Shown in pieces: positions 703 to 59,945 of a stretch of DNA of 64,000 bases. Under the pieces are notes generated by a model. The model was given only the letters and a program-made list of their open reading frames with translations, made no database searches and was not told the DNA's origin. The DNA comes from Ditylenchus dipsaci. Taxonomy: Eukaryota; Nematoda; Chromadorea; Rhabditida; Anguinidae. Every line of letters starts with the position of its first letter. Position 1 is the first letter of the stretch. A program made the translations under genes and the position numbers. The DNA is taken from contig SADC01000197.1 in the NCBI GenBank assembly GCA_004194705.1, forward strand, positions 94,913-158,912, in the 5' to 3' direction.

Positions 703-841
703 TTTTTCTATGGGTAATATTTAATTCTGTCCCCAAATTGCTGAAAAATGTCCCCAAATATTCTGAAATATGTCCCCAAATTTTTATTCTTACCTATTTT
801 TCATAATATCAGCTTTAAGTGTAATTTTTGATGCTTTATTT

Positions 842-1090
842 CTTTTACAGATGTCACTGCAACTGATTGAAGAGCCGAATAAACGTGGGAATCAAATCAA
901 TTACAAAAAGGCTGCAAGCTTTGATGGCGATGATGCTGAAGATGAACTTCAATTGTGGAAACAATGGGTGGAAAAAAAGCGCATTGCAAACACTCTGTGA
1001 TGGTGATGAAATGGCAAGGCCAAACGACTTATCCGCGCCATGCTATTGCTGAGCCGCTGGGAAAAAAGAGAAAAAGAGGACGTCCAAGTC
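842..1090 (+). pseudogene. Gene remnant inside element A (possible transposase fragment)
   Basis: An acceptor-like TTTTACAG at 843-850 precedes ATG at 851. The frame from there carries an acidic stretch and LWKQWVEKK and stops at about 1000. A second frame at 1012-1090 carries a basic AT-hook-like KKRKRGRPSQG before a stop, so at least one frame change separates the two halves. Residues IEEPNKRGNQINYKKA faintly resemble the start of a FLYWCH-type module, but no Cys/His pattern is complete. Its position between two TIRs is the main reason to call it transposon-derived. No catalytic domain remains. Confidence 0.35.
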
Positions 1091-1418
1091 AAGGATAGAG
1101 TGAATTAATATTTCGCCGTTGCACATTGTTATTTGTGGGAGTGTGTTAGAATAAATTTTGTTGCAATCAAGATTTGTGTTGACAAATTAATGCGTATGGA
1201 TTCTAGTACTACATTTAGTGTAGTATGACTGGAATGCGGTGATGGCTATGATTGTAATGACTGGTAGGCGGAATTGGTGCTGTTGGCATAAGCATTTTTA
1301 ACGTAAAAACCACACTCAGCATAAAAAATTACACTTAAAGCTGATAATATGAAAAATAGGTAAGAATAAAAATTTGGGACATATTTCAGAATATTTGGTG
1401 ACATTTTCGGTAACACTA

Positions 1419-2305
1419 TAGAATGCCCCCCCCCCCCAGCTAGCGGAAAATTTACTTTCCTGAAGGGGAAAGGACCCGTCTCATTTTGATTCTCGTGCTC
1501 TGAATAGGCACGGAACACTTTGGTTTCCGAAAAGTCGAAAATTTTTTTTTCTCGATTTGCCTTGGTCCCCAAGGTAAAAAATTTAGGAAAATTCAAAAAA
1601 AATATTTTTTTGAATTCCCGCCAAAACATTTTTTAAGGGATTTAGGGCTGTATTGGGAGGGGAAGGGAATAAAAGGGGCCACCTTCATGGCAAAATTATA
1701 AAAAAGTGAATTCTGGACTATTTCGGATGTCCTGCCATGTTTTTCAACTGGGCCGTTGCAAAAAGAGACTCTATATGCATTTTATGGTCAAGAGTACTTC
1801 TCGGAATCATGTCTAAGGTAAGTGTGCGCGCGCATCTCTAACTCTCAAGCCCCTGCGCCCCCTTCGGGGGCGCAGGGGGCTTGGGGCTTGGAGTTGAGAT
1901 GCGCACACCCACATACCTTAGACACAAATCACTCGAAGTGACTCTGGATGCATGAAAAAGCATGCATACGAGAGTTTATTTATGCGGTAGGCCCAGTATT
2001 CAAAACTATGTTCAACATCTTCTTGTTAATGGGCTCTGTGTGATTAGTGGCCCTCTTTTGTCCCTTCCCCTCCCAATACAGCCCTAATTCCTTTAAAAAT
2101 GTTTTGCGGGAATTCAAAAAAATATTTTTTTTGAATTTTCTTAAATTTTTACCTTGGGGACCAAGGCAAATCGAAAATTTTTTTTTTCGATTTTTCGGAA
2201 ACCAAAGTGTTTCCGTGCCTATTCAGAGCACGAGAATCAAAATGGGACGGGTCCTTTCCCCTCAGGAAAAGTAAATTTTTCGCTAGCTGGGGGGGGGGCA
2301 TTCTA
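1419..2305. mobile_element. Large foldback element with GC-rich hairpin tip (family F1, copy 1)
   Basis: Two arms of about 300 bp (1419-1700 and 2040-2305) are reverse complements, each ending in TAGAATGCCCCC next to a long C or G run. The centre (about 1800-1925) holds a GC-rich hairpin whose tip contains CTGCGCCCCCTTCGGGGGCG, flanked by AGATGCGC and CTTAGACA motifs. TA dinucleotides flank the element, consistent with a TA target. It interrupts the right TIR of element A and is therefore younger. No coding sequence. Relatives are at 35330-35990 and 38540-39650. Confidence 0.8.
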
Positions 2306-2539
2306 TAGTATAGCCCATTTTTCAGAAATTTGGGACATTTTTCAGCAATTTGGGGACATTTCACATTTGGCGACATTTTTCAGCAATTTGGGACAAAATT
2401 AATTACCACCCTTTTTCTATTCACAATGATTTATCCTGGAGTAAATTTGGCTTTTGAAGCCGTGCATTATTCCATAATAATTTTCATTTTTTTTTAATTT
2501 TTGAAAGCTTGTTTTTTTTATTTATAAAATTTATTTCTA

Positions 2540-2964
2540 ATGGCTCATTTATAAACGTTGTCGTTGTCGTCGTCGTCGTCGTTGGAAAAAATGTTTTATA
2601 AAGGCACTTTTACGCCAACGCCAACGACGACGACAACGACAGCGACGACATATTTATAAAAAATCCAACGACAACGCCAACGACAACGAAAATTTTTCTT
2701 CCAAATTAGACAAATTTGCATTTTAAGTCAGAATTTTAAGGATTATCTATATCCTCCACACGTTTTCACTCGAAAGCTCGACTAAAAATGCGAAATTTGT
2801 CGAATTTTGAATAAAAAATTTCGTTGTCCTTGGCGTCGTCGTTGTCGTTGGATTTTTTATAAATAGGTCGTCGTTGGCGTCGTCGTTGGCGAAAAGAAGG
2901 GTTTTATAAAAAAATATTCCATTGACAACGACGACGACAACGACAACGTTTATAAATGAGCCAT
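2540..2964. mobile_element. Foldback MITE with GTCGTT/GACAAC satellite arms
   Basis: The ends are ATGGCTCATTTATAAACGTT and its reverse complement. Each arm is a run of GTCGTT/GTCGTC-type units (2556-2583 and 2610-2695 left; 2822-2900 and 2932-2948 right) mixed with TTTATAAA spacers. The core is about 130 bp of AT-rich DNA with no open frame. I found no clear target duplication. The ATGGCTC end is shared with the element at 11481-11792, whose arms use a different satellite. Confidence 0.7.
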
Positions 2965-3020
2965 AAAACTCAAAATTTGAATTATCAAGTCAGTACGATA
3001 ACTCAAGATTTCTTTTTCTT

Positions 3021-4957
3021 TTAGCCTGTGTAACGGGTTGGTGCTGTCACTCCTCCTACGTCTTCGGCCGTGTCATAGAATTCGTCATGGTCGCCAGTCT
3101 TGCCCATGATTGGAAACATGGCTTGATGGGACAGACCTGGAGCAAATATTTCGACACTCCACAGTCCATAGGGCAGTACTCCGCGATTACTCCGAAGTCC
3201 CCAGGAGTTCCCAAAATACCTATTCTACCCGGCTCACCCGGCTAAATAAATATAGCTTTTGAAAAAATAACAACAGCTAAAATATACGTTTCCAGTCAAT
3301 CCAGGAGCTCCCACTGCACCTTGACTTCCGGGTTTGCCAATTATGTTAGAGGGACGGCCCTAGATTGTAGAAAGTACATTCACACGTCGAAAACAGGTCT
3401 AAACTAACCGGTAGACCTATAGGTCCAGGAAAGCCAGTCACACCGGGTTTTCCTTTTGGTCCTTTGACACCAACTCCAGCTAAAAATACGAACAATTTTT
3501 TTGTAGATAAGTTTGCAATCCACTCACAAACAATGGGATCCCCTGGAGGTCCTTGATGCCCTTTGAGGCCATCCTTGCCTCGATTGCCCCATCTGCCTAT
3601 TTACCTACAACTCCATCCCATCCAGGTTTGCCAGGTGGGCCTGAAATTGGGTGAGCTAATTAATTATTTATATCAACTATGAATATACCTGAATGACCAG
3701 TTGTGCCTGGTGCACCAAGCCAACCCCGCTCTCCTTGCGTGCCTCTAAGGCCAGGAGGCCCTGCAAAAGAACGCTAAAGTGAAAATACTATGGTGGAATG
3801 CCCACCTCCTGGACAAACAGTGCATGGCAGATCGGGGGATAGCTCCAATGGCAGATCATCCCCGTCATGACCAGGTTGGCCTTGTTCTCCTACCTTTCAA
3901 AATTTGTTGTAATTTTAATTTTTCGCTTGTTTAGAATACCTTTCCGGGGATGCCATCATCTCCAGGCATTCCAATCAAACCGATTGGTCCTGCTGGACAG
4001 GCTAGTCGGGAACATTCTAAAAAGCTTAATTTATTTTTCGCAGCTACATAGGCTATGTTTAAACAAACATAAGTATGAAGCTTATTTTTTTATTGTGAAA
4101 GTGTGTATTTTTTGGCTACAGTCAACCCTCGATTTAACTACACCCAAAAATGATCCAATTTGGTTGGCTTTGACTAAAATTTAGTCAAAGTGAATCCCGA
4201 TTTAACGACATCCTCCATTTAAAGACACCCTCAGTCGGTTCCCAGGGACGTCGTTAAACTGAGGGTTCAGTGTATAGGTGGAAACATTCTTCAAATTATG
4301 TGTCGACCTCCTCCAATTTTAAAACTTGTTGTTTTTGCAATTTTCAAAACCGTTTATATATTTTTTGGACTAGCGTGTAACCCCACGATTTTAGTTTCTA
4401 ACGAGGTGTCAACTGGCTTGATGCCATCTATAAAAGTAGGAGAAAAATTGGTTTTCTACAAAACTACTAGTTTTTTTTCAAAGATGACTTTATATGGGAG
4501 GTATAATTTAACTTTTTCGCTGACCAACAAAGCCTGAATAAGATGACCTTTCATCGAGATTTGACTGTTATTTTAAGAAAGTAATTAATAAGACCAACTT
4601 CCGCATTGACTGATGATTTCAGCAAATGGATCCACATTTCGAGAGAAACGAGTGATTGAGGGCGAAGGCAGTAGAGCTTTCACTTTGACTATTTCCGACC
4701 ACACACTGTCTGATTTGAGCTGTAAAACAGAGTATGTTACTGCACTCAAAGTTTTTTGTAAGTAAATGTACTGAAAATGACTCAGCCATAGTGTTGGTTT
4801 GCAGAAGCATTTGATTGGACTTGTTCACCAACACAACCACAGAAATTAGCAGTAGGACAAGACATGTTATACTTGCACCAATGCTTGCATACGCCACTTG
4901 CCGCATGAAATCATTGCGGTGGGAGTGTATGGTCGGTTGGATTACTAATTTAGGCAT
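3021..4957 (-). CDS. Nematode cuticle collagen (multi-exon)
   Basis: A secreted structural collagen of the cuticle. Exon 1 (4772-4957) starts MPKLVIQPTIHSHRNDFMRQ, followed by one membrane segment (ASITCLVLLLISVVVLV), the layout of the nematode cuticle collagen N-terminal domain. Exon 2 (about 4600-4719) has DSVWSEIV. Short exons then encode Gly-X-Y blocks with Cys pairs (3940-4016, 3806-3893 with PCTVCPGG, 3689-3760, 3605-3640, 3532-3596, 3409-3479, 3288-3359) and a Cys-containing C-terminus (3021-3241, EYCPMDCGV). One single-base frame break lies near 3157, after which an acidic tail ends in APTRYTG. An acceptor (TTTATTCTAG) just upstream of the ATG could be a spliced-leader site. A pogo-like MITE sits in the intron at 4119-4272. 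Confidence 0.85.
4119..4272. mobile_element. Pogo/Tigger-like MITE in a collagen intron
   Basis: The ends CAGTCAACCCTCGATTTAAC and the inverse GTTAAACTGAGGGTTCAGTG are flanked by TA. The CAGT-N-(A/G)ACCTC-type ends with TA duplication match pogo/Tigger short elements. Related copies are at 7050-7320, 24961-25140, 42789-42908 and 47458-47549. No coding capacity. Confidence 0.65.
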
Positions 4958-5387
4958 TTGCCCTAGTGAACCACCAACACTTGAACAATATTTTGGTTTG
5001 CTAGAATAAATGCAAATGTGTCGGAGTTGTTGATTCAGCAGGGGAAGATATGCAAATGACGAGACAAAAGACAATTATGACCGATATTATGCAAATGGTT
5101 TGCTTTATTTATGATCACAGCAAACTAGGTCATCTAATATTAATTAGGAAATTATTGAAAGAAGGGGCAATTATAAGTTGAGTCGACAAATTTGGGTCCG
5201 CTGTAAATAAGAATTGATGGTACAGGGTGCTCAATCCTCTTTTACCTTTTCAAACCAAAAACTAATTTTTAGATTTTTTACACAAGCAAGTCGACGATTT
5301 ACCATTTGATAGCTTAAAATTGACACATTGACTCATGTTTTTATTTATTGATCACTAAATAATCGATTAAAAATTGGTTAATTTTAA

Positions 5388-5829
5388 CACTAGAAGAACC
5401 AAGCGTAAACACGGTAGCGTTTTGTAGGGAATTTCATGTAGATTCCGAATCTGCAAAAAAAATCATAAATGTTTTCTTTCTGAGAGTTATGGTCTTTTGA
5501 AGTAAGCTATTTTTACGATTTTTTATAAAAAATATTTTTGATTTTTTGTGTCATATCTTCTTTTTTCAGACAGACACAAATATATCTATTAGAAAGCGCA
5601 TTAAATTCCGCATCTAAAAGGCCTTTAAGCTAAAAATTAAAGCTGTTAAAAAAAAGATATCACACAAAAAATCAAAAATATTTTTTTTATGAAAAATTCG
5701 TAAAAATAGCTTAACTGCAAAAGGACATAACTCTCAGAAAGGAAACATTTGTCAATTTTTTTGCAGATTCGGAATCTACATGAAATTATTTACAAAACGC
5801 CACCCTGTCTACGCTCAGCCCTTCTAGTG
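5388..5829. mobile_element. TTAA-flanked foldback MITE
   Basis: The element is flanked by TTAA (5384-5387 and 5830-5833), with ends CACTAGAAG and CTTCTAGTG. The arms are long imperfect inverted repeats (both contain GATTCCGAATCTGC or its complement and AACTCTCAGAAAG). TTAA target duplications are typical of piggyBac-type elements; that assignment rests only on the target site. No transposase. Confidence 0.65.
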
Positions 5830-5908
5830 TTAACAGATCAAAAAGCATGTTTCTTATTAAAAATTTAAAAGTTTGATCAATTATTGTGAACTGTAACAAC
5901 ATCTAAGA

Positions 5909-7030: not shown

Positions 7031-7049
7031 ATCTAAGACCTGAAATGTA

Positions 7050-7320
7050 CAGTGGCTCACTTCGGTGATATTCAAAATTTCGAAATTTTTAGCTTTTCTT
7101 AAAACAGCTCTTAAATGGCGGTTTATCGAGGTTTTGCTTTTTTAGAGGGAAATTTTTCATAATTCTGAAAAACGATCGGCAAAATCGGAATCCTCACGAT
7201 ATTTTCAACCGGACTGTCAAAACAGAACTAGCAAAAATATTCAGAAATCGGGGTAAAAAAGTGTCGGACCCCAGGCGGGAACCAACTTTTTAGGGTGGCG
7301 GATTATCGAGGTTTGACTGT
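7050..7320. mobile_element. Pogo-like MITE
   Basis: It starts CAGTGGCTCACTTC after TA and ends GAGGTTTGACTG before TA. Internal motifs (GGCGGTTTATCGAGG near 7116; GGCGGATTATCGAGG near 7300) recur in related repeats such as 8880-8912. No open frame. Confidence 0.5.
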
Positions 7321-7681
7321 ATCTCAACATTTTTACATTTAAAACATCTTTTGTAAAATGGGTTTTGTAGCTCTCATAATACTAAGTTTTACATTGTTAT
7401 CACAGTGCTTGCATGTACAATAAATAGAGAAATCTTAGCTATAAAATAGTAGGTCGAACACTTCCTTGAGTAAAAAATACATTTTTCTGAAACTACTATT
7501 GTAATTCAAAAGATGGCTTTCATGATCTCAAACCATTAAATAAAAAGAACAAGCTGTATAGTTTTTCAATATTTAAGACATTTAGTACGACAAACATTTG
7601 ATTCGGCAAAAAAAAACAATTGACATAAACAAAAGGGATGGCCTATTATTTTATAGTTATTTACATGCCCTAGTTATCCAG

Positions 7682-8646: not shown

Positions 8647-8912
8647 AGTTTTAGCGAAATAATTGAATCACAAGGCTTTGTTAAAAGTTATGAAATTTTG
8701 ACCAGCTATTTATAAGAGACTTTTTGAACAAAGCATATATATTTTTTCTGCACATCTTGGTGCTTTGTTATTTATACAGTCTTTTCTCATTGCTCATTTC
8801 TTTGTGGTTAAATGTGAGTTTAGTTTGGTTAAATAAATCTATTGTTCTAAAGTTTTGCTTTCATATAAAAAGTACTAGTAAGCGAGTGACGGATTATCGA
8901 GAGTTGACTGTA

Positions 8913-30491: not shown

Positions 30492-31259
30492 GGCTGTAGG
30501 AAGTTTCGTAACAAGACAATTTCGTAAGAGCGAAGTTTCGTAAGAACGAACTTTTGTAAGAAACATTTTCGTAAGAAGCAGTTTCGTAACAGCAAAAATT
30601 CGTAAGAAACTTTTTCGTAACAGCGTATTTTCGTAACAAATTTCTTTCGTAAGAGGAAATCTTCGAATTTTTTTCACCTTTAATCAATTTTTCTAATTCA
30701 GGATGTCATCTGATTCATTCGTTTTGGCCTTTCTGTCACTTTTTGACACTTCGAACAGTTAATTATATGACTATTAACTGTATGAGCACAAAAGTTGGTA
30801 AGCATAGGTCATATGACTGATAATTTTGATAATTAGTTGCTCCCCAGATTTTTCATACGTTAGGAGACCAGCAGAAATACCCAAAAGCATGGTGAAAAAC
30901 TCCGAGCTAGAATTCATATATTATATACTGCACATAGCTGAATCACTATCAGTGGCATGAATGGTGTAGTAGGCAAGTTGATGGGATGAATTTTTTTCAC
31001 CGTCGGTTCGATTCCACCCTCTCACTGTTTTCTTTTTCTTGACTATTTTTGGTCAAAAAATCACAGAAGTTATAAGAAACATCAAGGAGGATTAAAAAGC
31101 AACAAAAAGCCACTTAGCGTATCACTAATGTTACTGAAAAGTGCGTTACGAAAGAGTTTGTTACGAAAATTTGCTCTTACGAAAAAGTTTCTTACGAAAA
31201 TTCGTTTTTACGAAAATTCGCTCTTACGAAATTGTCTCGTTACGAAACTTCCTACGGCC
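30492..31259. mobile_element. MULE-type foldback with TTCGTAAGA satellite TIRs
   Basis: Perfect 9-bp duplications GTAAAATAC lie at 30483-30491 and 31260-31268. The ends are GGCTGTAGGAAGTTTCGTAA and, from the right, GGCCGTAGGAAGTTTCGTAA. The arms are arrays of TTCGTAAGAGCGAA-type units (30505-30665; 31137-31250). The core has no transposase but includes a tRNA-like stretch (30955-31012). G-rich ends with 9-bp duplication match Mutator-type elements. Confidence 0.75.
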
Positions 31260-31837: not shown

Positions 31838-33462
31838 ATCCCACCCCATAGTAGCCGGAAGCCCCTAAAAGTTGTTTTTTTCGGGGTTGACTAGAGGGGA
31901 GTAAAGTTTTTGCGAAAATTCGATTGAGCGGATCAGAATTCCAGTCTGATGGGCTTAATCGCTCAGAATTTCAGGTTTATTTTGAAAGTGCGCCTACAAG
32001 TTCTTGACGAAAAACCGAAAAATAGGCGTATCATATATATAGACGCAGTTGGAGAACGGCAACAAATTATGTTGCCTCGTCTTTATTTCGTGTGTTTATT
32101 CGGCTAACTCATGATTTTCAGATAATTCCTCGTGGTGCAGAGCTCTCTGATTTCGAAAAAGGGGAAATCGTTGCGTTGAGAAGCGAAGGGAAGGGTCTCC
32201 GTGCCATTGCTCGCCAGGTGCAGCGTTCCGACCATGTCGTACGAAATTTTCTCTCCGATCAGCAGCATTATGGCAAGAAGAAACGAAAGGGTCGCAAGAG
32301 GAAGCTGAGCAAGCGGGATGAGCGTCAAATCGGGAAGCGAGCATCGAAATCTTCCAGCAGTCTCAACACCATGAAGGCGGATCTCGGATTGGGGGTATCG
32401 TCACATCGAAGCTAGACTTGAATTCGGGCGAAATAACATGGGCCGCGACTGGAAACACGTGATTTTTTGCAATTTTTGTTCTCGAAATTCGTTATCTTTC
32501 GTTATGTTTTTAAGTGATCTTTTCCGATGAGAAAAAGTTCAATTTGGACGGTCCGGACGGGTTCAACGGATACTGGAGGGACTTGCGCAAAGAGCCTCGT
32601 TACTTTTCGAAACGAAATTTTGGCGGCGGAAGTGTGATGGTGTGGGCTGCTTTCAGTCACTACGGCAAGGTCGTTATCGCTTTCACCTCCTCGAAGATGA
32701 AGAGTGCGGAATATGTCAAGGTTGGCTACATTTAAACATGTTTTATGTGTTACCATAGACTTTTACAGATTCTCATAGACAAACTACTGCCGTGGCTCCG
32801 TCACATTCATCACATTCCGTTCGTCTACCAGCAGGATAACGCCTCAATCCACAAAAGCCGGGAAACTACTGCGTGGTTCGTGTCCGAAGGAATCAGCGTC
32901 TTGCCTTGGCCAGCTTGTTCACCCGACCTCAATCCGGTAGAAAATCTCTGGGGTATCATTGTGCGTCGTATCTATGCCGAGAACCGTCAATTTGCGACCG
33001 TGGAAGATCTCAAAGAGGCAATTCTGGAAGCTTGGCGCGGGCTGGAGTTTGCGCTTTTGGAGAAACTGGCGAATAGCATGAACAATCGAATTTTCTATGT
33101 TATAAATCGTTCTGGTAGTGTGACGGATTATTAAAATGTCGTTCCTCGTCGAAATAAATAGAGAATATGGGTTGCAATAATGGTTTTGTTGCCGTTCTCC
33201 AACTGCGTCTATATATATGATACGCCTATTTTTCGGTTTTTCGTCAAGAACTTGTAGGCGCACTTTCAAAATAACTTATTTTTCGCACGAAACAACTTTT
33301 TTAGCCGTTTTAGATGCTACGGTAAAAAAAACCTATGCATTACAGTTTCAAAAACAGGCTTAACTGCAAAAAATCAGGGTGCGTCTATAAATATGATACG
33401 GAGTGTAAACCTCCGAAAAACCAACTTTCAGAGGCTTCTGGCCACACCAGGGTGGGATTCTG
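31838..33462. mobile_element. Tc3-like transposon with long, layered inverted repeats
   Basis: Inner ITRs of about 80 bp (31983-32066 and 33184-33270; GTGCGCCTACAAGTTCTTGA) flank the transposase. A further inverted pair outside (31840-31895 and 33400-33460; AATCCCACC...AGCC) extends it. Inside the right flank, CCGTATCATATTTATAGACG (33385-33405) echoes the inner ITR, so an older element may have been invaded by a younger one. Long ITRs are known for the Tc3 branch of Tc1/mariner. Confidence 0.7.
32122..33134 (+). pseudogene. Tc3-like DD34E transposase, internally deleted
   Basis: The first part has an N-terminal paired-type helix-turn-helix (PRGAELSDFEKGEIVALRSE) and a basic GRKRKLSKRDERQI linker. 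After an intron (about 32459-32514) comes [15 protein letters not shown] with the first catalytic Asp. After a second intron (32720-32768) comes QQDNASIHKSR (second Asp) and SPDLNPVENLWG (Glu), with 34 residues between them. The C-terminus is complete to 33134. About 35 residues between the HTH and the first Asp are missing and the frame changes near 32395, so this copy is probably inactive. Confidence 0.75.
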
Positions 33463-34367: not shown

Positions 34368-35124
34368 TATCCCTTTAAAGGACCATTGCCACCTGTTTTG
34401 AATTATCCCCCGTGACAATTTATCCCCCGTGACAATTTATCCAGCGTGACAATTCATCCCCGGGACAGTTCATTCCCAGGACAATTCATACCCAGAACAG
34501 ACACGGACACAATATCCTCGCGCCGCGATATTCGCGCGGCCACAATCCCCACGGCCACAATTAATTGTTGTACCCAGGTGGACAACACAGGTAGTGTAGT
34601 CGTACCCGGGTAGTAATATTTTCGTCTTGTAATGTCGACTACTTGGTTTGGCTGGTTCAGACTAAAAAAATTTAAATCACTGCGAAATTTGCACTCATTG
34701 GGTACACTGAAAGTGAGAGTGAAAGAAAGACTGAGGGCAATTTTTTCCTATTGGGTACACACTGAGAGTGAGAGCGCAAGTCAGAGTGAGAGTGAAAGGA
34801 AATCCCCTAATCGGATACGGGCTTGAATACCTATAGCTGGTCAATGCCTTGATATTACCACCTGAGTACCACTTTATTGGTGCTACCACCTCCATACTAC
34901 TATCTCCACCCCGTATGGAGTGCGGAAGTACTTTGGAACTGGGGTCCAATGAAAACGGAAGAACAAGTTTTTACTTCAAAATATTCCGTTCGGGACAAAT
35001 AGAATTCAAAAAAACTTTACTATCGTTTTGGGGGTGGATTGTCCCTGAGGATGAGTTGTCCTGGGATGAATTGTCTCAGGGATGAATTGTCCCTGTCCCG
35101 TCGTAGACGGCAATGGCCCTTTAA
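34368..35124. mobile_element. Foldback with GGGACAATTCATCCC satellite
   Basis: The ends TTTAAAGGACCATTGCC and inverse GGCAATGGCCCTTTAAA are followed by arrays of GACAATTCATCCCCGGGACA-like units (34410-34495; 35040-35095). The core has TACCACCTGAGTACC units and a degenerate CAAGTGG...CCACTTGG repeat. A related GGACAATTCACAGTCTG array is at 43815-43935. Confidence 0.6.
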
Positions 35125-39650: not shown

Positions 39651-40292
39651 ATTGTTCCCACCTACACTTTCTTATTACACTTTCTTAACACTTATTTTTT
39701 AAAAATATTTTGCCATATTTGATGCGTCTGTCTAGGCTGTACACCGAAATATACGCGCCAGTTTGGTACTTGGTCGTTTTGGTAAATTTTTTTAGTAAGA
39801 ATTGTCTTGGTAGGAATTGTTCTGGTGAGAAATTTTTTGATGGAGGAAGCTTTTTTCTGCCACCTTTTGCTTTTTTCTGCCACTTTTTGCTTTTTTCTGC
39901 CACCTTTTGATTTTTCTGCCACCTTCTAGCTTTTTTCTGCCACCTTTTACTTTTTATATAATATTATGTCATAATTTAATTGATCGGTTAGAAATTTATT
40001 CACATATCATTGATCAACAATCCTCTCTCTACTCTTTTTTTCACAGCTTTTCTTTCGTAAGGTGCTTTATTCAAATTAACCTAACTGATAACATCAACCG
40101 CGAAAACAATAATAACGAAGAACATTTTTTACTCATCAACAACCAGTGCTTCTCCTTCTCTAGCTCTTTGTTTTCTTCCTATCTTTCGCTTGCTCTCAAT
40201 CGTAATGTCTGTGATCTCCTCCGGATACGCTTCTCTTTAATTGGCACACATGAGAGTGTAGAAGAATATTAATAGCATCAATATAAATGAAC

Positions 40293-42462
40293 GGTAAAAG
40301 GACAACTGCCGACCATTCTAACTGCCGACCCCCAACTGCCGACCATCCCAACTGCCGACCCCCAACTGCCGACCAATTATCAAATGCTGAAAATTGCTCT
40401 GTCTTTACATTATATTCTTCTGCGATCTGTTTAAATTTTTTGCCTAGGTGTTTGCGTGCTACTGCGTTTATGACGTGTTTATTTTCAGATGGCAACAATA
40501 GAGTTTATTTACAGCCAGCGCGTCGGCAGTAAAAAAATGGCAATCACTGAGTTCACGGAAGATTCCAATAAGTGCTATACATGGTCGATTCTCACAACCA
40601 AAAGAAAGGTGGATGGGGCTAGAATTGTCTACTATATGTGTACTGAATGCGACGCGAAGCAAAAGAAGTGGAAGAAGCAGGCCTTACCTCTGGATGAACA
40701 CCCATTGCCCACTATGAAAGCAGACTGTATTGCAGATATATGAATTGAAATAGAGCCAAACCATTCCTATTTTTGTTACGGTAAGAAGCGCAGTGAGGTA
40801 AGCCTTCTAATTGCTAGGACTTGTGGCTTTATAAAAATAATTAGGTGGATGGACTTAGAGCACGCCGTAGTATGCAAGTACAACTGGCCAGCGGAACTCA
40901 AGAAAACACTGCTTCAGCCGTCGTCAGAACTGAGAAAAAGATCCTAATTAAATTTGCTGGAAAGAGCAATGGTTTGTAACGCTTTTATGAGGTTCATGTC
41001 GACTTCTGATAATATATTTTCAGTGTACCGGATACATTCGGTGCCGTTGGTCACTGTGCTACTAAAAAACAGAGACAAGAAGACATCTTAGGAAGATGTG
41101 GAGAAAAAGTGGGGTTTTTGATAGAGTTTTGTTTTTATGCGGTTTTATTCAGTTGCTAGTGCGTTGGACCAACATGACAAATCGCTGCAATGTGAATTCG
41201 CTCATTTTGATCATGAACCTGCTGTTTGGAAAGCGTTCGAGCGCCAGTTTCCTGATATTAAAGCAAAGATGTGCAGTTTTCATGTAAAGCAAGCTCTTAA
41301 CAGAATGGTAGATCATACTTTGTATTATTTTTGTGATTTCCCGTTTTAGGTGCAAGACAAAGGCCTCGCTGCGCTGTACGAGAACAAGAGGATGTGCAGA
41401 ATGTAGTCAGAATGATAGGAGCTCTTCAATTGGCTCCTCCTGAAGTGTTGTACTATTCGCTCAATATTATCCGCTCTTATATCCAAGCCACTTTCGGACA
41501 TTTGCATGATACGGCAAACCAGTTAGATCAGTTAGTTGATTACTACAGGTAGTCTTTTCTTCTACTTGGTATTCACATGTTCAATTCATATGTTTTCAGG
41601 TACACTTGGATATCTCTCGGAGCTTTCTTTTCTCTTTTTGGAATGCAAGGTCAGAGGACTACGAATACGGCAGAGTCATATCATGGAAAGTTGCGACACC
41701 ACTTCAGAACCAATTGCTTGGAGAATGGATCGCTCGCTTCAAAGAGGTTTTTTTTATGTATGGAAAGAAATCTAAAGCAATGTTCAGTTGCATCACGCAG
41801 AAGAAGAGAATGCAAGTGGTGTCGCACACGCACGCCAGCCTCCTCGCCAGCAATCTCAAGACTTGGCCGCGCTCTCATCTCGGATTCTTGCAGCTCAGCA
41901 AGATTTTGAGGTGGTTCTCAACAATCAAGTGAATGATCAAGATTTTGACGAAAAACTGTCTGCGTTCTTGCTCCAAATTGGTTTCCTGATGGGCTACTCC
42001 AGTGAAAACGCAGTGGCTGATGAAACTGATGAGGATGAGCTAGTAATAGATGACGAAATTGAAGAGGCAAATGATGATCAGAACTTTGAAAACCCAGCTT
42101 ACATTAACCTTTATTGAAACCTTATTTTGTTGATTCAAAGATATGTTTACTGTCTTTGTTATGTTATGAATAAATGAACCTTTGAAGATATGTAAAAAAT
42201 TTCAAATTACGGATGAAAGTTGACACCGTCTTACTACTTTTTAAAAATGGTATAATGAAATAGCAAATTTTCGCATAGCACGAATCAATTTAACTCTGTA
42301 AACACTTTAAGATTTGAAGTATCATTTTCACACTTTTCATAAACCTTCGATCTATACTCTTTTACTTTATTTTTCGATAAATCTTCGAACTAGAACAAAA
42401 TTCAAAAATTGGTCGGCAGTTGGGGGTCGGCAGTTGGGATGGTCGGCAGTTGACCCTCGTTC
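40293..42462 (+). mobile_element. MULE transposon with AACTGCCGACC-array TIRs (element B)
   Basis: Perfect 8-bp duplications AAATGAAC lie at 40285-40292 and 42463-42470. Left TIR is 40303-40376 (units of AACTGCCGACC with CCC or ATCCC spacers) and the right TIR 42409-42453 holds the inverse in the same order of spacers. A transposase gene runs left to right between them. The TIR has no other component, so the array itself must serve as the recognition sequence (inferred). Confidence 0.8.
40489..42117 (+). pseudogene. MULE transposase with FLYWCH-like N-terminus, element B
   Basis: An N-terminal exon from ATG at 40489 has a FLYWCH-like pattern (FIYSQRVGSKKM, CYTW, YMCTECDA, Lys-rich). Later exons contain LLKNRDKKTS (41066-41095), FDHEPAVWKAFERQFPDIKA then CSFHVKQALNRM (second catalytic Asp and the C-x-FH box, 41190-41310), and FGMQGQRTTNTAESYHGKLR (the RTxNxxES-H region with Glu, 41637-41700). 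An acidic C-terminal tail (ETDEDELVIDDEIEEANDD) stops at 42117. The first catalytic Asp region (usually DGTFK) is not visible, and frames shift between exons, so this copy seems defective or badly sequenced. Confidence 0.7.
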
Positions 42463-42788
42463 AAATGAACAATTAACTAAAAAATTACTAATGAGTGCTT
42501 GCAAAACACGCGATCCTTCATTCCCTTGAAGCAGCTGCAAATGTAGAGACCATTAAAAAGCTGAGATGGCTGCACCTTGTAGACACTTGAGCGAAGCTTC
42601 TTATACCTAGTCCATCCTGCTCAGCAGTGAAATTTCGAAAATTATGACATAATGCTACATAAGAGCAAAAAGGTAGCAGAAAAAAGTAAAAGATTGCAGA
42701 AAAAAGTAAAAGGTGGCAGAAAAAAGCTAGAAGGTGGCAGAAAAAGGCCAAAAGGTGGCGAAAAAAAAGATTTATCCATTTTTTGGTA

Positions 42789-42908: not shown

Positions 42909-43814
42909 TGCGCGGTTATTTTGGGTTATTTCACGGTTATTTTTAAAAAATTCTTATCGGAATAACTGCGTACCAAAAACGACCGAGTACCAAATTGGCG
43001 CGTATATTTCTGTGTACAGCCTCAGTCTTATCAGAATTTTCACAAGGATTCCGTTGTAAATGACAATGTCTGCAAATTTCACTAAAATTTAAAGTTCCGA
43101 AAATTTTCGGAATCTTGGATTATTTTTCAGAATTTTGTTTTTTTAAGCTACGTACACATACTGCGACTCCGCTATGAGGCTAAATTGGAGTGAGAAACCC
43201 AATTTTTTGAGCTAAGCATAGTTTTTTTGCGAGTTTTACGAGTTAACACAGCCATTTTCAAAATGAGTACCACTTTTACACCGAACTATTCCAAACGTCT
43301 CAAATTAGAATAAATCATCCGAAACCACCTTAAACAGGGTTCTCATCTCAAAATTTTGAACTCAAGTGAATTCGGCAAAATAAAGTACAATTTGGGCCTT
43401 TTTCGTCAAAAAATGCCATTTTATCCAGTGCTTGTTAAGATTTGAGCATCAAAAATAAAGATTTTGACGTAAAATGTTAAAAATTCTGAAGATTTAGGGT
43501 GCCAAATAAAGTACAAAAAATTAAATGAAGTACAGATGAGAAGTTTGACCCTAAACCATTTCAAAATGCCCTTAAAATTGCAAATACCGTATTTCCTCTA
43601 ATTGCCACCCCCACCCTCTAATTGCCGCCCCCCCCCACCCCGCCTAACTTCAAGTGGTCTGAAAAGGGCGTAATCGTTTCGCCAATGAAACTTTCTCCAA
43701 TGCGATCTCTTCGCCAACTGCATCTTTTCGCCAATGGCATCTCTTCGCCAATAATCTCTTTTCGCGTATACTCTTGATTTTGTTGGCAAATAAACAATGA
43801 GAAGTGTAAATGGG

Positions 43815-43945
43815 GACACGGACAATTCACAGTCTGGACAATTCACAGTCTGGGACAGTTCACAGTATGGGACAATTCACAGTCTAGGACAATTCACAGT
43901 ATGGACCTTTCACAGTCTGAGACAATTCACAGTCTGATCAAATTC
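43815..43945. repeat. Tandem array GGACAATTCACAGTCTG
   Basis: Seven to eight degenerate copies of a 17-19 bp unit. No opposite arm found. Related to the GACAATTCATCCC arrays at 34410-34495 and 35040-35095. Confidence 0.65.
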
Positions 43946-44551
43946 ACAAAAAAGCATCCAAAAATGCCTGAATATTAATGCATCAGGAAATTAAGTACGC
44001 AAAGCTGATTCTTTTTTTCTTCTTCTGGACTTTTTGATACCTTTTTTTCGAGATTCAATCAAAATTTCCATGTTGTAGAGGGGTGCGTAGAAGTCCATAT
44101 AAGAATTATTAAGGAAAGTCTACCCAAATTTCAGGCCTCGTAATTCCTATTCATCATCTACCCGCCCTACTGGCGCACCCGTTTACTTACACTGAGACCT
44201 ATCCCCATAGAGGTATACCTAATCTTCTGGTATAGGTATACACCTGATTTAAAGCTAGCTAACTCAGTTTGGTGGTCCGTCTTGTCAAACTGGATTTTCC
44301 ATTCAATTTTAAATCAGTAAAAATGATTTGTTTCTAACGTTGACCAAATTTTTTTATGGCCATTTTGCCGGATTTTCATCTCTGTTCATCTCAGTCAAGA
44401 GTACCCAATCTATATTTAGGGCTCGGGTGACTAAAATCGGAATTCAAGCATTATTGAATCAAATTCCCTGCACATTTTTAGGTATTATAGCACTATAACT
44501 TTTTTAATTTATTTATCTTTTATCTTTAAGCCGTCCAAGTGGATATCCACC

Positions 44552-45631
44552 TGGGGCCTATTCCAACAGTTGAAAGTTGAAAGTGTAAAGTTGAAAGTTG
44601 AAAGTGAAAGTGTTCCAAGAGTTGAAAGTTGAAAGTAGAAAGTGAAAGTTGAAAGTTGAAAGTGAAAGTTGAAAGTTGATGGTGTTCCAACAATTGAAAG
44701 TGACTCACTTCCAACTTTCACTTTCAACTGTCAACTTTCACTTCCTCCTATATATTTCTAAATTTTTAAATTCGTACATTTTGCGGAAATTCAAATTTTA
44801 CAGTTTGAACCAACCAAACCAAGTGGTCGTCCACTTGGTGCGAAAAATTTTTTTACGTTTTTCATGTTCCAAAACCTGTTTTCTGGACTAATTCGGGCAT
44901 GCTGAAGATGGTTTGATAATAGTAAAATGGCGTCTTCTCGGGTATTTTTTGAGTTTTGGTAAAGTCGAGTTTTGGTAAAATCAATTATACGTCAAAACTC
45001 AAAAAATACCCGAGAAAACGGAATTTTACCACTATCAAACCATCTTCAGCACCCCCGAATTAGTCCAGAAAACAGGTTTTGGAAAATTAAAAACGTGAAA
45101 AAAAAAATTTGATCCAAGTGGACGACCACTTGGTTTGGTTGGTTCAAACTAAGAAATTTAAATTCCGCAATTCCGCCTAAATGGGACCCCATGGTTACTG
45201 ATAATGGATTAAGACAAGGGTACTGTGGGTAAATTGATAACAATAATGATGTGTGGGTACCACTTTATAGGTATTCCCTGTTACTACTCGAGGTTGAAAA
45301 TAATGAAAAGATCCGAATTACATATCGAAATCGTAAAAAATACCCACAAATTTGGATTCTACGCAAAAATTGCATCTAGAAATGACCAAAACCGAAAAAA
45401 TTTTACTTTCAACTTTCACAAAAAATCGGACCACCTATTTCAACCCACCGATTTTTACCATCTACTTTCAACTTTCAACTTTACACTTTCAAGTGTTGGA
45501 GCACTTTCACTTTCAACTTTCTACTTTCAACTTTCAACTTTCACAAATTTCACTTTCAAGTGTTGGAACACTTTCACTTTCAACTTTCAACTTTCTACTT
45601 TCAACTTTCAACTGTTGGAATAGGCCCCTGT
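44552..45631. mobile_element. Foldback with CTTTCAACTTT satellite TIRs
   Basis: Perfect 24-bp terminal match beginning GGGGCCTATTCCAACAGTTG on both sides. Arms are arrays of AACTTTCAACTTTCAAGTG-like units (44568-44740; 45405-45617). A second foldback (44790-45175; CAAACCAAGTGGTCGTCCAC tips) is nested within. The core between holds no transposase. No clear target duplication. Confidence 0.7.
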
Positions 45632-45902
45632 TCAGGTTGTACCTATGCTGAGTTTTAGAGTTTGAGTAGCTAAAACCACAATTTCAGTTCAGACAAACAT
45701 TACTCCATTACTTTTAGGTTAGAAAAACGGTTTGTTTTATTTGCAAAAAAAAAGGGCCGATGAACTGGGAGAATCCAAGTCTCCTAAAAGAATCCCATTG
45801 TATGTCTCGTGTTGATTGTGGTGTGGTTCAGAATAAAGTGTTGACTGTTGTATCTCCCCTGTCCGGTGCCGGAGGATTCTTGTAAAACCTTACTGTATCC
45901 AC

Positions 45903-46205
45903 CAGTGTTTTGCTGAGGAGACTTTTTGTGAGTGAGAGTGAGTGAGAATGACATTTGTCCTCAGAGCCTGTGAGATTCTCACTAAAAGTGAGAATTACCG
46001 TATTTCCTCTAATAGGAGCCCTTGGGCGCTTATTTTTCAAACCCCCAAAAATCTGAAAATTTTGGGGTTGATCTCGAAAATTTTGATTGCTCAATCAAAA
46101 TCTGAAACGCGGAATCAGTAAAGTTTGTGGGAGTTAAGAAAACGCACTAAACATGTCAGAAAAATGAGTGAGATTCTCACTCGGAGTGAGCTCAGTGAAA
46201 CACTA
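45903..46205. mobile_element. hAT-like element with GAGTGAGAATCTCAC satellite
   Basis: Ends CAGTGTTTTGCTGAG and, from the right, TAGTGTTTCACTGAG. Flanks GTATCCAC (45895-45902) and GTATTCAC (46206-46213) form an 8-bp duplication with one mismatch. Holds a CCGTATTTCCTCTAATAGGA block of the other MITE family. Confidence 0.7.
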
Positions 46206-46749
46206 GTATTCACCCACTGGGTATCGAACCTGAGAGATCATCTATTCGCTATCAGATGTGTACCTCATTCAAAGAATTAAATCACATTTACACTTCTCAT
46301 CGCTTATTTGCCGAAGAAATCAAGAGTATACGCGAAAAGATGCATTGGCGAAAAGATTCCATTGGCGAAAAGATTCCATTGGCGAAAATATGCATTGGCG
46401 AAATGATCTCATTGGCGGAAAGATGCTCTTTGCGAAATGGTTTCATTGGCGAAAAGATGCAGTCTCAATTGAGGTAATTTTTTAGAGGTCTAGGCCAGTT
46501 TGGTGCAGCTTTGAATGTTTGGTTAATGGTGTGGGAGAGGGCGGTTGTTAAGTAGTAGGTTTTGGGTGGATTGAGGTGATAAAACTATAAAAATTTGCGA
46601 ATAGAACTTTAATCAGGTCAACAATTGCTCAACTTTTCAGAAAAATCACTAGTAACTCGTGATCCAGAACTCTATAAAGTTGTCGCATAAGTTCGTTTGT
46701 TTTTTTGTAAAAAGTGTATAAATCTTCATTTTTAAAATGAATAAACAAA

Positions 46750-55161: not shown

Positions 55162-55199
55162 TAGTGTGTAGGTTTTCTTGTAATTTTGTTAATATGTCG

Positions 55200-56385
55200 T
55201 TTGTTAGTAATAAATAATTTCATCGTGTTACGTTTTTTTTGGTTTTTTTACATGGCTTCTGGTGTGCCCCACTTTTGACCTATTTTTGTCGGCGGGTAAC
55301 GACCTTGCCAAAGATTGAGTTACTCCTCTGTGGATATTTTCCAATTCTGGCAGACTTTAAGACACTTTACTATGCTTATTATGACCTAAAACAACAAAAA
55401 GAGAAAGACTCACTATTATTATATGCATATAGAGTCTCTTTTTGCGCAGCTCCAGTGACCAAAAGGGATAGAATAGCCTTCAGTTGAGCACTTAACTACT
55501 GTTTATACATAAAACGAGCATGCTTAAACGGGCATGCCATATCTAGAATTATTTTCTGGTAGAAAGGTCTGTAAACGAAGCATGGTCCTGGTCGTCTGTT
55601 CGAAATTTTATTCGGATCCTAGAATTTGGTTAAGTTTTTTTTCGAAACGTTCTTGAAACTTGAAAAAAAATAGTTTAATAGAGGTTCGCACAAAGCGCTC
55701 ATTTTCTTCGAAAATAACTGAGGATGAATCATGAAGTTTCATGTTCAAGAAAATTTGGCGCCCAAAGATCAAAAAACTTGGAAGGTACAATTTCAAACTG
55801 TTCGATATTAGAGATATCCGGTATTTCACGTCGTAATAGTCAAGCCATATGTGTAGATTTTCAGTGTTAATCTCAAACAAAAATATTGTTAATCATGTAA
55901 AATGTACAGGCAATTAAACTCCGAAAATCCTGTACTCAACCAAAAATAATCTGGGGGTGGACAGACTATAAGTCCTGAAATCCGTATCTAAATTTCAGTA
56001 TGTTAAGAAATTGTAAAAAATGGCAAAATTTCAAAAATGGTCGATTTAAGACTACCGTATTTCGAAGCCATGGGCTTCTATTTTTCTCTCAAATCTTGAA
56101 ATTGTTAATCAAAAATGACCTTAACTCCGAAACCTTAGTCAAAAAATAGGGGGGTGGGCTTCTATTAGAGCATGGGCTTATATTAGAGGAAGTACGGTAT
56201 TTTTTATTTCGTGTTCCTCATCGAATTTTTCTCTTTAGCCATTGCATATTTATAGCCACAATATTCCTTACACTAAGGGCTTTCGAATGAGCCATCACTT
56301 GCCGATAAAACATGCAAAATTTGAAAGCTATAATTGATTTCTGTGAAAATTTCCAAGAAATTTTTTTCATCTAGTCGACTCGATT
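55200..56385. other. Intergenic with repeat fragments
   Basis: 55230-55490 resembles part of an F1 arm (AGAGTCTCTTTTTGCGCAGC and CAGTGACCAAAA). 56054-56199 is a CCGTATTTCGAAGCCATGGG MITE with inverse end TTAGAGGAAGTACGG. No supported exon. Confidence 0.45.
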
Positions 56386-56395
56386 GAGATTCTAG

Positions 56396-56826
56396 GTACA
56401 ATTCTGATATACCCCAGCACTCACTTCTGGTATACCCCAGCACTCAATTATGGTATACCCCAGCACTTAATTTAGGATACACTCCTCATGTTACCCACGA
56501 TTGAGAGCTGAGGATGTTAGCTACACGATGGTGTAAAAATTTCTTAGTTCAGTTTAAAAAAATGCACATCTTTTAATTAAAATGGAACTGAATCATCTTT
56601 GAGTATTCAATTTTCATTCGAAATGATTCAATTCTATTTTAATTAGAAGATGCACATTTTTGTGAACTAAACTAAGAAATTTTTACGCCATCATGTAGCT
56701 AACATCCTCAGCTCTCAATCCTGGGGTAACATGAGGAGTGTATCCCAAATTAAGTGCTGGGGTATACCATAATTGAGTGCTCGGGGTATACCAGAAGTGA
56801 GTGCTGGGGTATACCAGAATTTAGCC
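56396..56826. mobile_element. Foldback with TCTGGTATACCCCAGCACT satellite
   Basis: Perfect 8-bp duplications GATTCTAG lie at 56388-56395 and 56827-56834. Ends GTACAATTCTGATATACCCC and, from the right, GGCTAAATTCTGGTATACCC. Three to four copies of a 21-24 bp unit per arm, then a long inverted block (GAGCTGAGGATGTTAGCTAC) and an AT-rich core. G-starting ends suggest MULE type. Confidence 0.75.
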
Positions 56827-57260
56827 GATTCTAGCACTATTTTTTTGTCGAGGTTTCCTGAAACGCAACTGGAGGCTCGATAGAGGAGTGAATTTTCTGC
56901 ATTTTGTTACCAAGGACGTATACAAAAAATGCAAATTTTAGGTATTTATGCAAAAGTTAGATGGAAAACGCAAAAACCCCTATTTTTACTCGGAAAATGC
57001 CAGTTGTTTGCTGTTGATGGTCTCTCGTTTGTAAAACTAGTGGTTTTGAAAATTCTATTTTGGTTAAAAGATAGAAGATAATTAATCTTAGCTTTCTTTT
57101 GGTATATAAAAATGCTCAAAAAATGCAAAATTTGAGGTTTTCAATGCAAAAGAAACTTAGTATAATTCCAGTGCTGAAGATGGTCTCCACCAGAAGAACG
57201 TGCCTCAAGCATAGCGTAAGGTCTTTCTCCGAAACTCGTTCAGCTGTAGCTAAGACAAGA

Positions 57261-58155
57261 TGGTAAAAAAGAAGGGCCGAAAAAAGCTAAAGCAAATCGG
57301 AGACAAAACACAAGCTGCTGAACAAGCAAACATGAGGAGTAGAGCTCGTCTATGTGAGTCAAATTTTCATTGTGCCTTTTTTCGATGTCTACCGAACTTT
57401 TTAATTCTAGTGAGCTGCGTTTAGGGAATAAACAGCCAATACGAAGAACGTGCGACACTGCAAGTGCAATCAAGAAGTTTCATGGAAAGCAAAATAAAGC
57501 AATGGCTACTGGAAATGGATTTGTCGTACCGGATCAATACAAGTACTACCAATGTGGAGCAAACGAACCGGAATAATTTTTGCTCAGTGATTTAACAGAT
57601 GAAATCGGAAAAGGGTATTCATTTTTTAATTATATGTTTTTGACATAGAATTATATTTAGCATTATGCTCTTTGGTCGATAAAGCAACAAGGATCGGGCT
57701 GAAAAAAAGGTATGAAGGTTATCTTTGTGGACGGCACGTTCAAAATCACGCCTGCGCCATTCTACCAAGTAAGAGTATCTTTCTTTCATTTGCTTTAAGT
57801 ATTATGTGTTTAGGTCTACGTGATTCTAGCTGAAAGAGGAGGATACGTCTTTCCGGTCTTATATGCTCTTCTGCCGGATAAAACGAAGGGATCGTACTGC
57901 CGAATGTTTCGAATGATCCGAGAAATATGGCCAGATTTTGATCCGACAAGCTGCTCAATGAACTTCGAAAGGGGAGCAATCCGGGCGGTTCAAATTATCT
58001 TTCCGGAATGCAATATATGGGGTTGCCTGTTCCATCTGGTTCAGAACATGAAAAAGACGCTGGCCAACTGAAGCGTCTCTATGTAACAAATGCTGAATTT
58101 GCTCTTAAATGCCTTTTGTTTTGTTCTGAATAAGCTTTTGTTATGGAAATGTTGT
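57261..58155 (+). pseudogene. MULE transposase fragment (element D), broken
   Basis: Pieces in order: a basic start MVKKKGRKKLKQIGDKTQAA (57261), RTCDTASAIKKFHGKQNKAM and QYKYYQCGANEPE (57440-57575), then a stop and frame changes. VIFVDGTFKITPAPFYQ follows (57717-57768; first catalytic Asp). An intron leads to VYVILAERGGYVFPVLYALL and an unusual NFERGAIRAVQ (second Asp replaced by Asn) with GCLFHLVQNMKKTLAN (57814-58071). A shifted frame continues KRLYVTNAEFALKC to about 58130. The C-terminal part with Glu is absent; element C begins at 58166, immediately after. Confidence 0.7.
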
Positions 58156-58165
58156 CTTTTGTTTG

Positions 58166-59945
58166 GGACACGGTCGTTTGTTTGAAAGTTCGTTTGTTCG
58201 AAAGCGTCGTTTGTTCGAAAAGTTCGTTTGTTCGAAAAGTTCGTTTGTTCGAAAAGTTCGTTTGTTCGAAAAATGTTCGAAAAGTTTGTTTGTTCGAAAA
58301 ATGTTTCTTTGACCGAAAATTATAAAAGTATTTTCAAATAATATTTATCTTGAGCGGAAGAACTTTGATTTTTGTTGCTTGTTCATTTTTTCGCTGTTCC
58401 GTTAGTTGTAGCTGGTTCTCTCTTATTTTTTGTTTGGCAATTTATTTCTGGGACAAGTTAGACAAGACAAGCTTTATAATTGATTTCAGAAATTGCGATG
58501 TCTGTCCGAAATGTGCTAGAAGCAATTGGTGGTTACTATTCCGACTCTGATGATGATGGTGAAGAAGATCAGCAAGTATTGATGGTGGAGCCAGCCGAGC
58601 AGCAAGAAATCGCCGTTGAGCCTCTTGTGGTGGTGGAGCCAGTCATTCCGGTGGGTTTTAATTTATAGTTGGCAATCATTTCAAGTTTATTTTCAGAGTT
58701 TCCTCAAATCGGTGCAGGTCAAGGATGGTCAAGGATGGTCAAGGATGGATTCTCAATTTGGACGGTCGTTTCTTCTGGAAGAACAAGCAGCACAAAACCA
58801 CAGCTTACTGGAAGTGTGTCAAGGCAAACGATTTAGACTGCAAAGCTCGCATCAACACAAACATTCAGACTGGAGCTGTCATCAAGACCAAGGGGATTCA
58901 CAATCATGACAAGTGTGCTACGTCTCTGCCAGTTCGAAATTTCAAGAATGCCGTCAAAGAAAAAGCCGGTGAGACAATGGAGATTTGAATTTGTTTATTT
59001 GTTTGATTCTTCCTTATGATTAATTGTTTAGAAGCCGTCACAGATCTTTAATCAATTGTTCAAGAATGTTCCGGGAGCTGTGCAGTCGTTGGTGGACAAA
59101 AGTGCAGAAAGGCTCGTCATTGGAAGAACAAGAAAGCGTGGCAGAGTGGAACCGGCGACTATCAATGGAATGGACTTTGAAATTGGAGATGAAATTGATG
59201 AAGAAGGAAACAGGTTAGTGCTTTTTATTCACAGATGGCCACTGGCAATGAATTTGTTTTAGGATTTTGCATTTTGGTCGAGCCAGCAACAAGAATTTGT
59301 CGAGTCAAATGAAGGTCGTCTTTATGGATGGAACGTTTAAAATCACACCTTTTCCATTTTATCAGGTTTGCTTAAATATTTTCATTGTTATACAGAGGAT
59401 GTATATATATTTTCAGGTCTACGTGATTCTGGCTGAAAGGGATGGCTACGTTTTTCCAGTTCTCTACGCTCTTCTTCCAACCAAGCAGCAGATGGTCTAT
59501 GAAAAACTCTTTTGAATGGTGCGCGGGATCTGGACCCCCCTGGACTCTACAACTTCGTGAATTGCCTTAAAACGGTGCAGCAAGGACGTGATCAGAAGTA
59601 TTTGCAGTGGCAGCTTGGCAACAAACCAAAAGGGAAGAGAACCAAGTACAAGGACGCCGATGCCCGCATTCTCACAATCGTTCAAGCTTACGAGGAAATA
59701 AGCACTGATGAATATCTCAAAGGAATTGCTAACAATTTTGTGATGGATAGTTAAATTGTTGTTGAATGGTTGTCTCATTTATTTTTGTTTGTATTCTACC
59801 TATAAAATCATTTGTTCATAAAATCGTTACAAATGAACAGAGAATAAAACGAACAGACGCTTTCCGTACAAACAAACTTTTCGAACAACTTTCGAATAAA
59901 CGAACTTTTCGAACAAACGAACTTTTCGAACAAACGACGCGTACC
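58166..59945 (+). mobile_element. MULE transposon with AAAGTTCGTTTGTTCG-array TIRs (element C)
   Basis: Ends GGACACGGTCGTTTGTTTGA and, from the right, GGTACGCGTCGTTTGTTCGA. A 10-bp duplication CTTTTGTTTG lies at 58156-58165 and 59946-59955. Left TIR holds about seven copies of a 16-bp unit AAAGTTCGTTTGTTCG (58175-58300); right TIR about four to five (59860-59940). The enclosed gene lies in the same orientation. Confidence 0.85.
58498..59754 (+). pseudogene. FLYWCH-MULE transposase, internally deleted (element C)
   Basis: Exon 1 (58498-58650) has an acidic N-terminus (MSVRNVLEAIGGYYSDSDDD). Exon 2 (58697-58968) encodes a clear FLYWCH domain: GRFFWKNKQHKTTAYWKC, then CKAR and HNHDKC. A 10-bp unit (GGTCAAGGAT) is triplicated at 58720-58750 and shifts the frame just before it. 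Exon 3 (59033-59212) has GRTRKRGRVEP. Exon 4 starts at 59262 with FGRASNKN and VVFMDGTFKITPFPFYQ (first Asp). Exon 5 runs from 59418 (VYVILAERDGYVFPVLYALL) to a stop after MVYEKLF (59515). The final part (59520-59754; YLQWQLGNKPKG and ending NNFVMDS) matches a MULE C-terminus. The segment with the second Asp, C-x-FH and Glu is deleted, so this copy depends on another source of transposase. Confidence 0.75.

Follow-up and report, generated by a model that had tools for sequence, protein, structure and literature searches.

The 64,000-nucleotide stretch of the Ditylenchus dipsaci genome analysed here (contig SADC01000197.1, positions 94,913 to 158,912 of the forward strand; hereafter the window) contains three transposable elements, elements 1 to 3, whose terminal inverted repeats (TIRs) are tandem arrays of a short unit. 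An earlier note on the window had described them as Mutator-like, each with a different unit, and had proposed that every lineage evolves its own array and that a FLYWCH-type domain recognises the unit. Analysis of the whole genome bears out the classification and the three different units, and reveals such arrays at most of the transposase loci sampled: they point inward, are bordered by short caps shared between families and by target duplications, and consist of units that are private to one transposase clade each and mostly follow a common pattern. We conclude that these are probably elements of the Mutator superfamily in which each TIR combines a shared cap with a clade-private array, the latter likely being the docking site of the clade's own FLYWCH domain. 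The trait of the Phantom subclass, an N-terminal FLYWCH domain joined to MULE, is present at many loci, and this assignment is made by domain layout.

Arrays, duplications and caps at transposase loci

The genome (226,978,389 bases in 1359 contigs; 227 Mb) was searched with the MULE profile PF10551 and the FLYWCH profile PF04500, for which 150 of 504 and 150 of 429 candidates, respectively, were scored; the former gave at least 115 matches at an E-value of 0.001, nearly all above the cut-off (27.6 bits), and the latter at least 144. From 259 listed MULE/FLYWCH sites, 80 were sampled with their flanks, mostly the best-scoring ones, and after omission of seven overlapping loci 73 were counted. 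Two of the loci, L006/L007, are identical (100%) to a UniRef protein of D. dipsaci along stretches of 74 and 26 residues. An array of a 13-18-bp unit was found at 71 of them. Matched inverted arrays stand on both sides at 31 loci, on the left only at 33 and on the right only at seven; many of the one-sided cases arise because the examined flank stops short of the expected other arm. Arrays were paired at a unit distance of at most 0.20, since a looser limit of 0.35 accepted 178 of 1439 swapped halves as pairs. With periods of 11-24 bp allowed, the unit measures 14-18 bp in 32 of 33 pairs. As the earlier note had expected, the arrays are thus not placed at random relative to MULE genes: the 31 bracketed loci compare with none of nine loci of DDE_3 transposases, which shows that array TIRs are not a trait of all DNA transposons. 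The nine include the DDE_3 element of the window (31977-33274, domain at 32835-33014), which served as a control and has ordinary TIRs with perfectly complementary arms of 90 nt.

Four unit patterns were searched genome-wide, with complete lists for two of them and the first 100 of 106 and first 100 of 621 matches for the others. Among the matches listed, adjacent arrays no more than 6.5 kb apart face inward 44 times, never face outward and face the same way twice, a paired polarity that rules out ordinary microsatellites. A MULE/FLYWCH match is enclosed, again among the matches listed, in 19 of the 44 inward-pointing closed elements (6/9, 5/15, 8/13 and 0/7 per pattern), the remainder being partly short elements of ~0.8-1.3 kb. 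Dimer patterns of the units of elements 1, 2 and 3 matched the genome 24+27, 313+308 and 32+24 times, respectively, and the backward patterns not once, so that their abundance exceeds chance.

Duplications of 8-11 bp border 22 of the 31 closed elements, as against a mean of 5.4% and a maximum of 20% for swapped flanks. In 18 of the 22 a short shared cap adjoins the duplication; the other four (L015, L065, L068 and L074) were left out of the cap list because their duplications do not adjoin a cap. These end sequences are positioned outside the private arrays and are of a GGGTACNYGAC type as opposed to GGGACACGGAC or GGGATCCGGAC. The cap pairs are asymmetric, 16 of 18 having one GGGTAC-type and one GGGA-type end as judged by eye. 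The side of each cap type relative to the transposase direction varies between families, as if the interior and the ends could invert.

Within the window, the perfect 9-, 8- and 10-bp duplications claimed for elements 1, 2 and 3 proved exact (Table 1). Comparison with empty sites confirms them for the latter two: when the flanks were joined through a single copy of the duplication, 8 of 22 genome matches run uninterrupted over the junction of element 2 (best 96% over 1-210) and 14 of 39 over that of element 3 (best 93% over 10-210). The joined flanks of element 1 gave three genome matches, none of which crosses the junction, so that no empty site was found. An assembly artefact is ruled out by the empty sites and by inverted pairs on many contigs.

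At many loci a FLYWCH domain lies upstream of MULE on the same strand, and both domains are well covered at 40 loci. One FLYWCH domain, in an open frame of 286 amino acids (L050, C89:22002), has no array near it, and this locus is a candidate host gene of transposase origin. A search for relatives with arrays in viral contigs, made with one protein and one alignment, found none.

Private units and their common pattern

Unit analyses leave out L034, whose arrays do not bracket it, and the AT-rich L057. The remaining 69 loci comprise 30 unit families, defined by a cyclic edit distance of at most 0.20 and complete linkage, which replaced a single linkage at 0.25 that had joined most units into one chain. 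On a MULE tree of 64 loci and 28 unit families, the units need 28 label changes, where the minimum is 27 and shuffled labels need 53.2 on average and 50 at the lowest; on a FLYWCH tree of 45 loci and 20 families, the 19 changes equal the minimum (shuffled 35.6). Each unit is therefore confined to one transposase clade, as had been proposed, and at least 28 families have a repeat of their own. At L058, whose arrays lie beyond the examined locus, the nearest FLYWCH and MULE domains come from the CRTTTCCCCGAAAAGT family, and CRTTTCCCCGAAAAGT arrays were found on both sides.

The arrays had also been pictured as each lineage's own invention. The units of different lineages are, however, not wholly unrelated, because most follow one pattern, N-G-M-C-R-W-W-W-N-N-Y-Y, which emerged from an alignment of the 30 units by rotation only with the strand set by the inward direction. 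Its information amounts to 8.36 bits per unit, compared with 4.82 in letter shuffles (maximum 5.64 in 100), and drops to 6.26 bits (maximum 7.42) when half of the units are reversed. On leaving each unit out in turn, its own strand outscores the other in 25 of 30 cases, and at the 5% level 21 of 30 surpass shuffled versions of themselves. Motif C of the element Tm1 from Meloidogyne, which lay outside the training set, scores 9.70 on the pattern (reached by 0.35% of shuffles) and -0.09 on the reverse strand.

Which domain goes with the unit

For unit distance, the correlation is r 0.48 with the distance in MULE (64 loci) and r 0.63 with that in FLYWCH (45 loci). Partial Mantel tests are liberal. 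At the 40 loci with both domains they gave 0.53 (p 0.0005) for FLYWCH given MULE and -0.14 for MULE given FLYWCH, and among 20 representatives 0.43 and -0.06; under stricter coverage the former value is 0.53 (37 loci) or 0.42 (19 representatives). As a control, one MULE half given the other yields 0.05-0.30. Within FLYWCH, the signal sits in the N-terminal half: given the other half it retains 0.44-0.47, as against 0.02-0.06 added by the C-terminal half. L045/L046 differ from L051 by 5% in the catalytic domain, 18% in FLYWCH and 33% in the unit. To judge from this covariation, the FLYWCH domain likely reads the unit.

Most of the sampled elements combine a FLYWCH finger with MULE as the catalytic domain, and their TIRs consist of a short end common to families and, next to it, tandem copies of a 14-17-bp unit private to the transposase clade. 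In the mechanism that we propose, cleavage by the common catalytic domain would take place at the caps, and it would fall to the private array to determine on which element, its non-autonomous copies included, a given transposase acts. Units shift stepwise around the common pattern and are homogenised inside each element as well as across its two arms, so that reader and array would drift jointly into separate pairs. In the furthest extension of this idea, to which we give slightly less than an even chance, the genome may hold ~30 mutually exclusive transposase-satellite pairs with a common catalytic domain and common caps, in which a fast-changing FLYWCH domain of WRKY fold would read a private 15-bp address, i.e. 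a fixed C-R-W-W-W core plus a block of roughly four variable bases.

Alternatively, the arrays could be private by descent alone, with a sequence-independent role (hairpin formation, repeat-driven recombination or spacing of the ends), the unit hitchhiking and FLYWCH not reading it. This explanation draws on observations that weigh against reading by FLYWCH. The units fit the MULE and FLYWCH trees equally well, each needing the minimum of 16 changes at the 40 loci with both domains, and nearest neighbours predict the unit about equally too (MULE 33/40 and FLYWCH 32/40, or 14/40 and 12/40 without close copies). Since neither trees nor nearest neighbours set one domain apart from the other, common descent by itself accounts for most of the link between unit and transposase, and we grade reading by FLYWCH as likely and no higher; the partial Mantel tests favour FLYWCH, but the pairs of loci in them are not independent. 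Nor did a ranking of FLYWCH columns by covariation, headed by columns 9, 36, 35 and 22, single out the presumed recognition strand. The same array form also occurs in elements without a detectable FLYWCH domain: several MULE loci have no or merely a weak match, and the clade of element 2 has arrays and no detectable FLYWCH. For element 2 itself the proposed reading appears to fail, its unit being off the common pattern and the profile search giving no FLYWCH match. Likewise off the pattern are the units of the outer array pair at 39.8 kb and of the 56.4-kb foldback, and that of element 1 fits it weakly. The FLYWCH domain of L034 (C229:31540) is 0.02 from that of L031, yet adjacent arrays have another unit; this locus, in which no MULE domain was found, was set aside because the arrays do not bracket it. 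Finally, 9 of the 31 closed elements have no detected duplication.

Nevertheless, freely drifting units would not be expected to share a strand-fixed pattern over 30 families that a Meloidogyne repeat fits as well, nor to keep their length so narrowly in all but one of the pairs; moreover, FLYWCH adds to MULE, and MULE does not add to FLYWCH. We therefore regard this alternative as unlikely.

Somewhat less probable still is that the caps alone define the ends, so that one transposase could mobilise all families and the arrays would tune efficiency only. The caps are indeed common to several families, and in the Drosophila element Galileo the THAP domain of one subfamily showed weaker binding to the TIR of one foreign subfamily, none to that of another and variable binding to others (PMC3688188; this and the following citations refer to excerpts of the papers). 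Free sharing would, however, predict units that jump between distant transposase clades, which never occurs in the sample, and no closed element was seen with two units mixed. A role of the arrays in countering silencing, bound by an element protein and not mainly marking the ends, is very improbable: although VANC likewise targets tandem motifs that are short and private, vary among related Mutator-like elements and change in step with the protein (PMC5735166), the arrays here adjoin the cut ends as inward inverted pairs (44 to 0) and both are retained in short copies without transposase, whereas VANDALs are without long TIRs (PMC6446971).

Elements of the window and their surroundings

The arrays of element 1 lie at 728-782 and 2316-2395, and a second inverted repeat is found inside it (arms 1428-1515/2211-2298); hidden Markov models recognised no transposase there. 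MULE exons had been claimed for two of the elements. In element 3 this stands, with a FLYWCH exon and a partial MULE domain, and the element is regarded as internally deleted because only columns 1-32 of 78 are retained; in element 2 the match is below threshold. RYYR-CCHC gained no support as the reader of the element 2 unit: its three genome matches include none within the unit-2 arrays listed (100 of 621).

Element 3 has arrays of TCGTTTGTTCGAAAAGT at 58173-58300 and 59887-59937, and its closest FLYWCH relatives, L002 and L011, share this unit. A sequence search of the PDB with its finger gave no relevant match, and a fold search did better. Its flank is present elsewhere in the genome without the element, and the array at 60026-60099 is likely the right end of another MULE into which element 3 inserted.

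Four gene-less foldbacks of the same design had been suggested, of which two are supported (30492-31259 and 56396-56826). In the former, the terminal 10 bases match at 9/10 and the unit resembles that of the MULE locus L008. The region at 38.1-38.5 kb has long arms of the ordinary kind (38143-38261/38352-38470) containing roughly two copies of a 21-mer, which hardly amounts to an array, and at 51.2-51.7 kb the unit is palindromic in itself and no duplication could be fixed. Other arrays include two of 7-bp units (AGTTGAA / ACTTTCA) that form a large inverted pair at 44568-45613 and resemble an array in L058, clustered arrays of GAGTTCTACTCG type with periods of 20-91 at 60730-61406, and further inverted pairs of other units at 43678-46458 and 34403-35092, for which no duplication was found. 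Rfam families and tRNA genes were not found in the window.

Table 1. Features of the window (positions in the 64,000-nucleotide stretch)
Feature	Position	Strand	Evidence or remark
Element 1, foldback with array TIRs, transposase not recognised	712..2411		arrays, duplication
Target duplication of element 1, TTTTTCTAT, 9 bp	703-711 / 2412-2420		perfect copies
Foldback, TTTCGTAA-type arrays, 9-bp duplication GTAAAATAC	30492..31259		ends GGCTGTAGGAAG/GGCCGTAGGAAG
Outer inverted pair, 20-bp array, enclosing element 2	39849-39955 / 42668-42766		flank copies without element 2 in genome
Target duplication of element 2, AAATGAAC, 8 bp	40285-40292 / 42463-42470		perfect copies
Element 2, arrays of AACTGCCGACC plus 3-5-bp spacer	40293..42462	+	arrays 40303-40375 / 42410-42452
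N-terminal piece of element 2	40492..40740	+	weak RYYR-CCHC match, 17.7 bits (cut-off 27); no FLYWCH match
MULE-domain piece of element 2	41167..41292	+	22.7 bits, below cut-off 27.6
Foldback, 23-bp arrays, 8-bp duplication GATTCTAG	56396..56826		terminal match 4/10 only
MULE domain of a different element, just left of element 3	57814..58047	+	32.5 bits
Target duplication of element 3, CTTTTGTTTG, 10 bp	58156-58165 / 59946-59955		perfect copies
Element 3, caps GGACACGGTC (left) and GGTACGCGTC (right, read inward), transposase gene internally deleted	58166..59945	+	arrays, duplication
FLYWCH exon of element 3	58752..58907	+	44.0 bits
MULE-domain remnant of element 3	59417..59512	+	columns 1-32 of 78
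TTTTCGGGGAAAA-type array of a different MULE unit, with cap GGGTACACC (read inward) at its end	60026..60099	-	array and cap

Relation to known systems and significance

The FB/NOF elements of Drosophila have long TIRs made of tandem repeats. The elements described here resemble them in this respect by description (as cited in PMC3169594). A closer counterpart is Tm1, a Mutator/Foldback element of Meloidogyne with FLYWCH and MULE, asymmetric 7-bp ends followed by 13-15-bp tandem repeats, duplications mostly of 9 bp and non-autonomous foldback copies, whose Tm1-A finger is without the last histidine (PMC3169594). It shares with the present elements the two domains, asymmetric ends outside ~14-bp repeats, the foldbacks and a repeat that fits the common pattern; it differs in being, in the excerpt, one family with one repeat, not compared with transposase clades, as against 30 unit families in a single genome. 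Similarly, among elements of the Phantom clade in Aedes aegypti, Muta1 has a 10-bp terminal motif and nine copies of a 12-bp repeat and Muta5 an 8-bp motif and nine copies of a 15-bp repeat; FLYWCH occurs in 13 of 14 families, duplications measure 8-9 bp, and Muta1 moves in yeast (PMC5225508). The likeness extends to terminal motif, tandem repeats, FLYWCH and short duplications, whereas clade-private repeats, a common pattern and covariation with FLYWCH are not stated in the excerpt of that paper.

Private motifs with a private reader are known from the Mutator-like VANDAL elements of Arabidopsis, in which short tandem motifs and VANC evolve together; those motifs, however, lie in non-coding regions rather than in long TIRs, and what reads them is a distinct protein that counters silencing (PMC5735166). 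We do not class the present elements as VANDAL because long inverted array TIRs stand at 31 of 73 loci. In Galileo, a foldback element of the P superfamily, tandem repeats of the TIR hold several sites bound by a transposase domain and lie outside a terminal segment common to families, but the domain is THAP and the transposase P-type (PMC3688188). The same paper, in 2013, called the repeats of Foldback and Phantom elements untested as binding sites.

From these excerpts, the layout of cap and array (Tm1, Muta1/Muta5), a private motif with its reader (VANDAL/VANC) and the binding of repeats by a transposase domain (Galileo) were already known. New relative to the literature searched are how large the set is, the pattern common to most units and the covariation with FLYWCH; our searches found no report in which repeat families are linked with FLYWCH clades or a common unit pattern is given.

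The function of tandem repeats in foldback TIRs is an open question, which tens of reader/repeat lineages in one genome make directly testable, among them close pairs such as L045/L051, where the repeat has just changed. If the pairs are exclusive, they would represent transposition systems that are related yet separate, and would offer a data set on the rules by which the FLYWCH/WRKY fold recognises DNA. Tandem arrays would then allow reader and address to shift together, one step each time, and the genome of D. dipsaci would hold a natural set of protein-DNA address codes, recording how a DNA-reading fold shifts its specificity.

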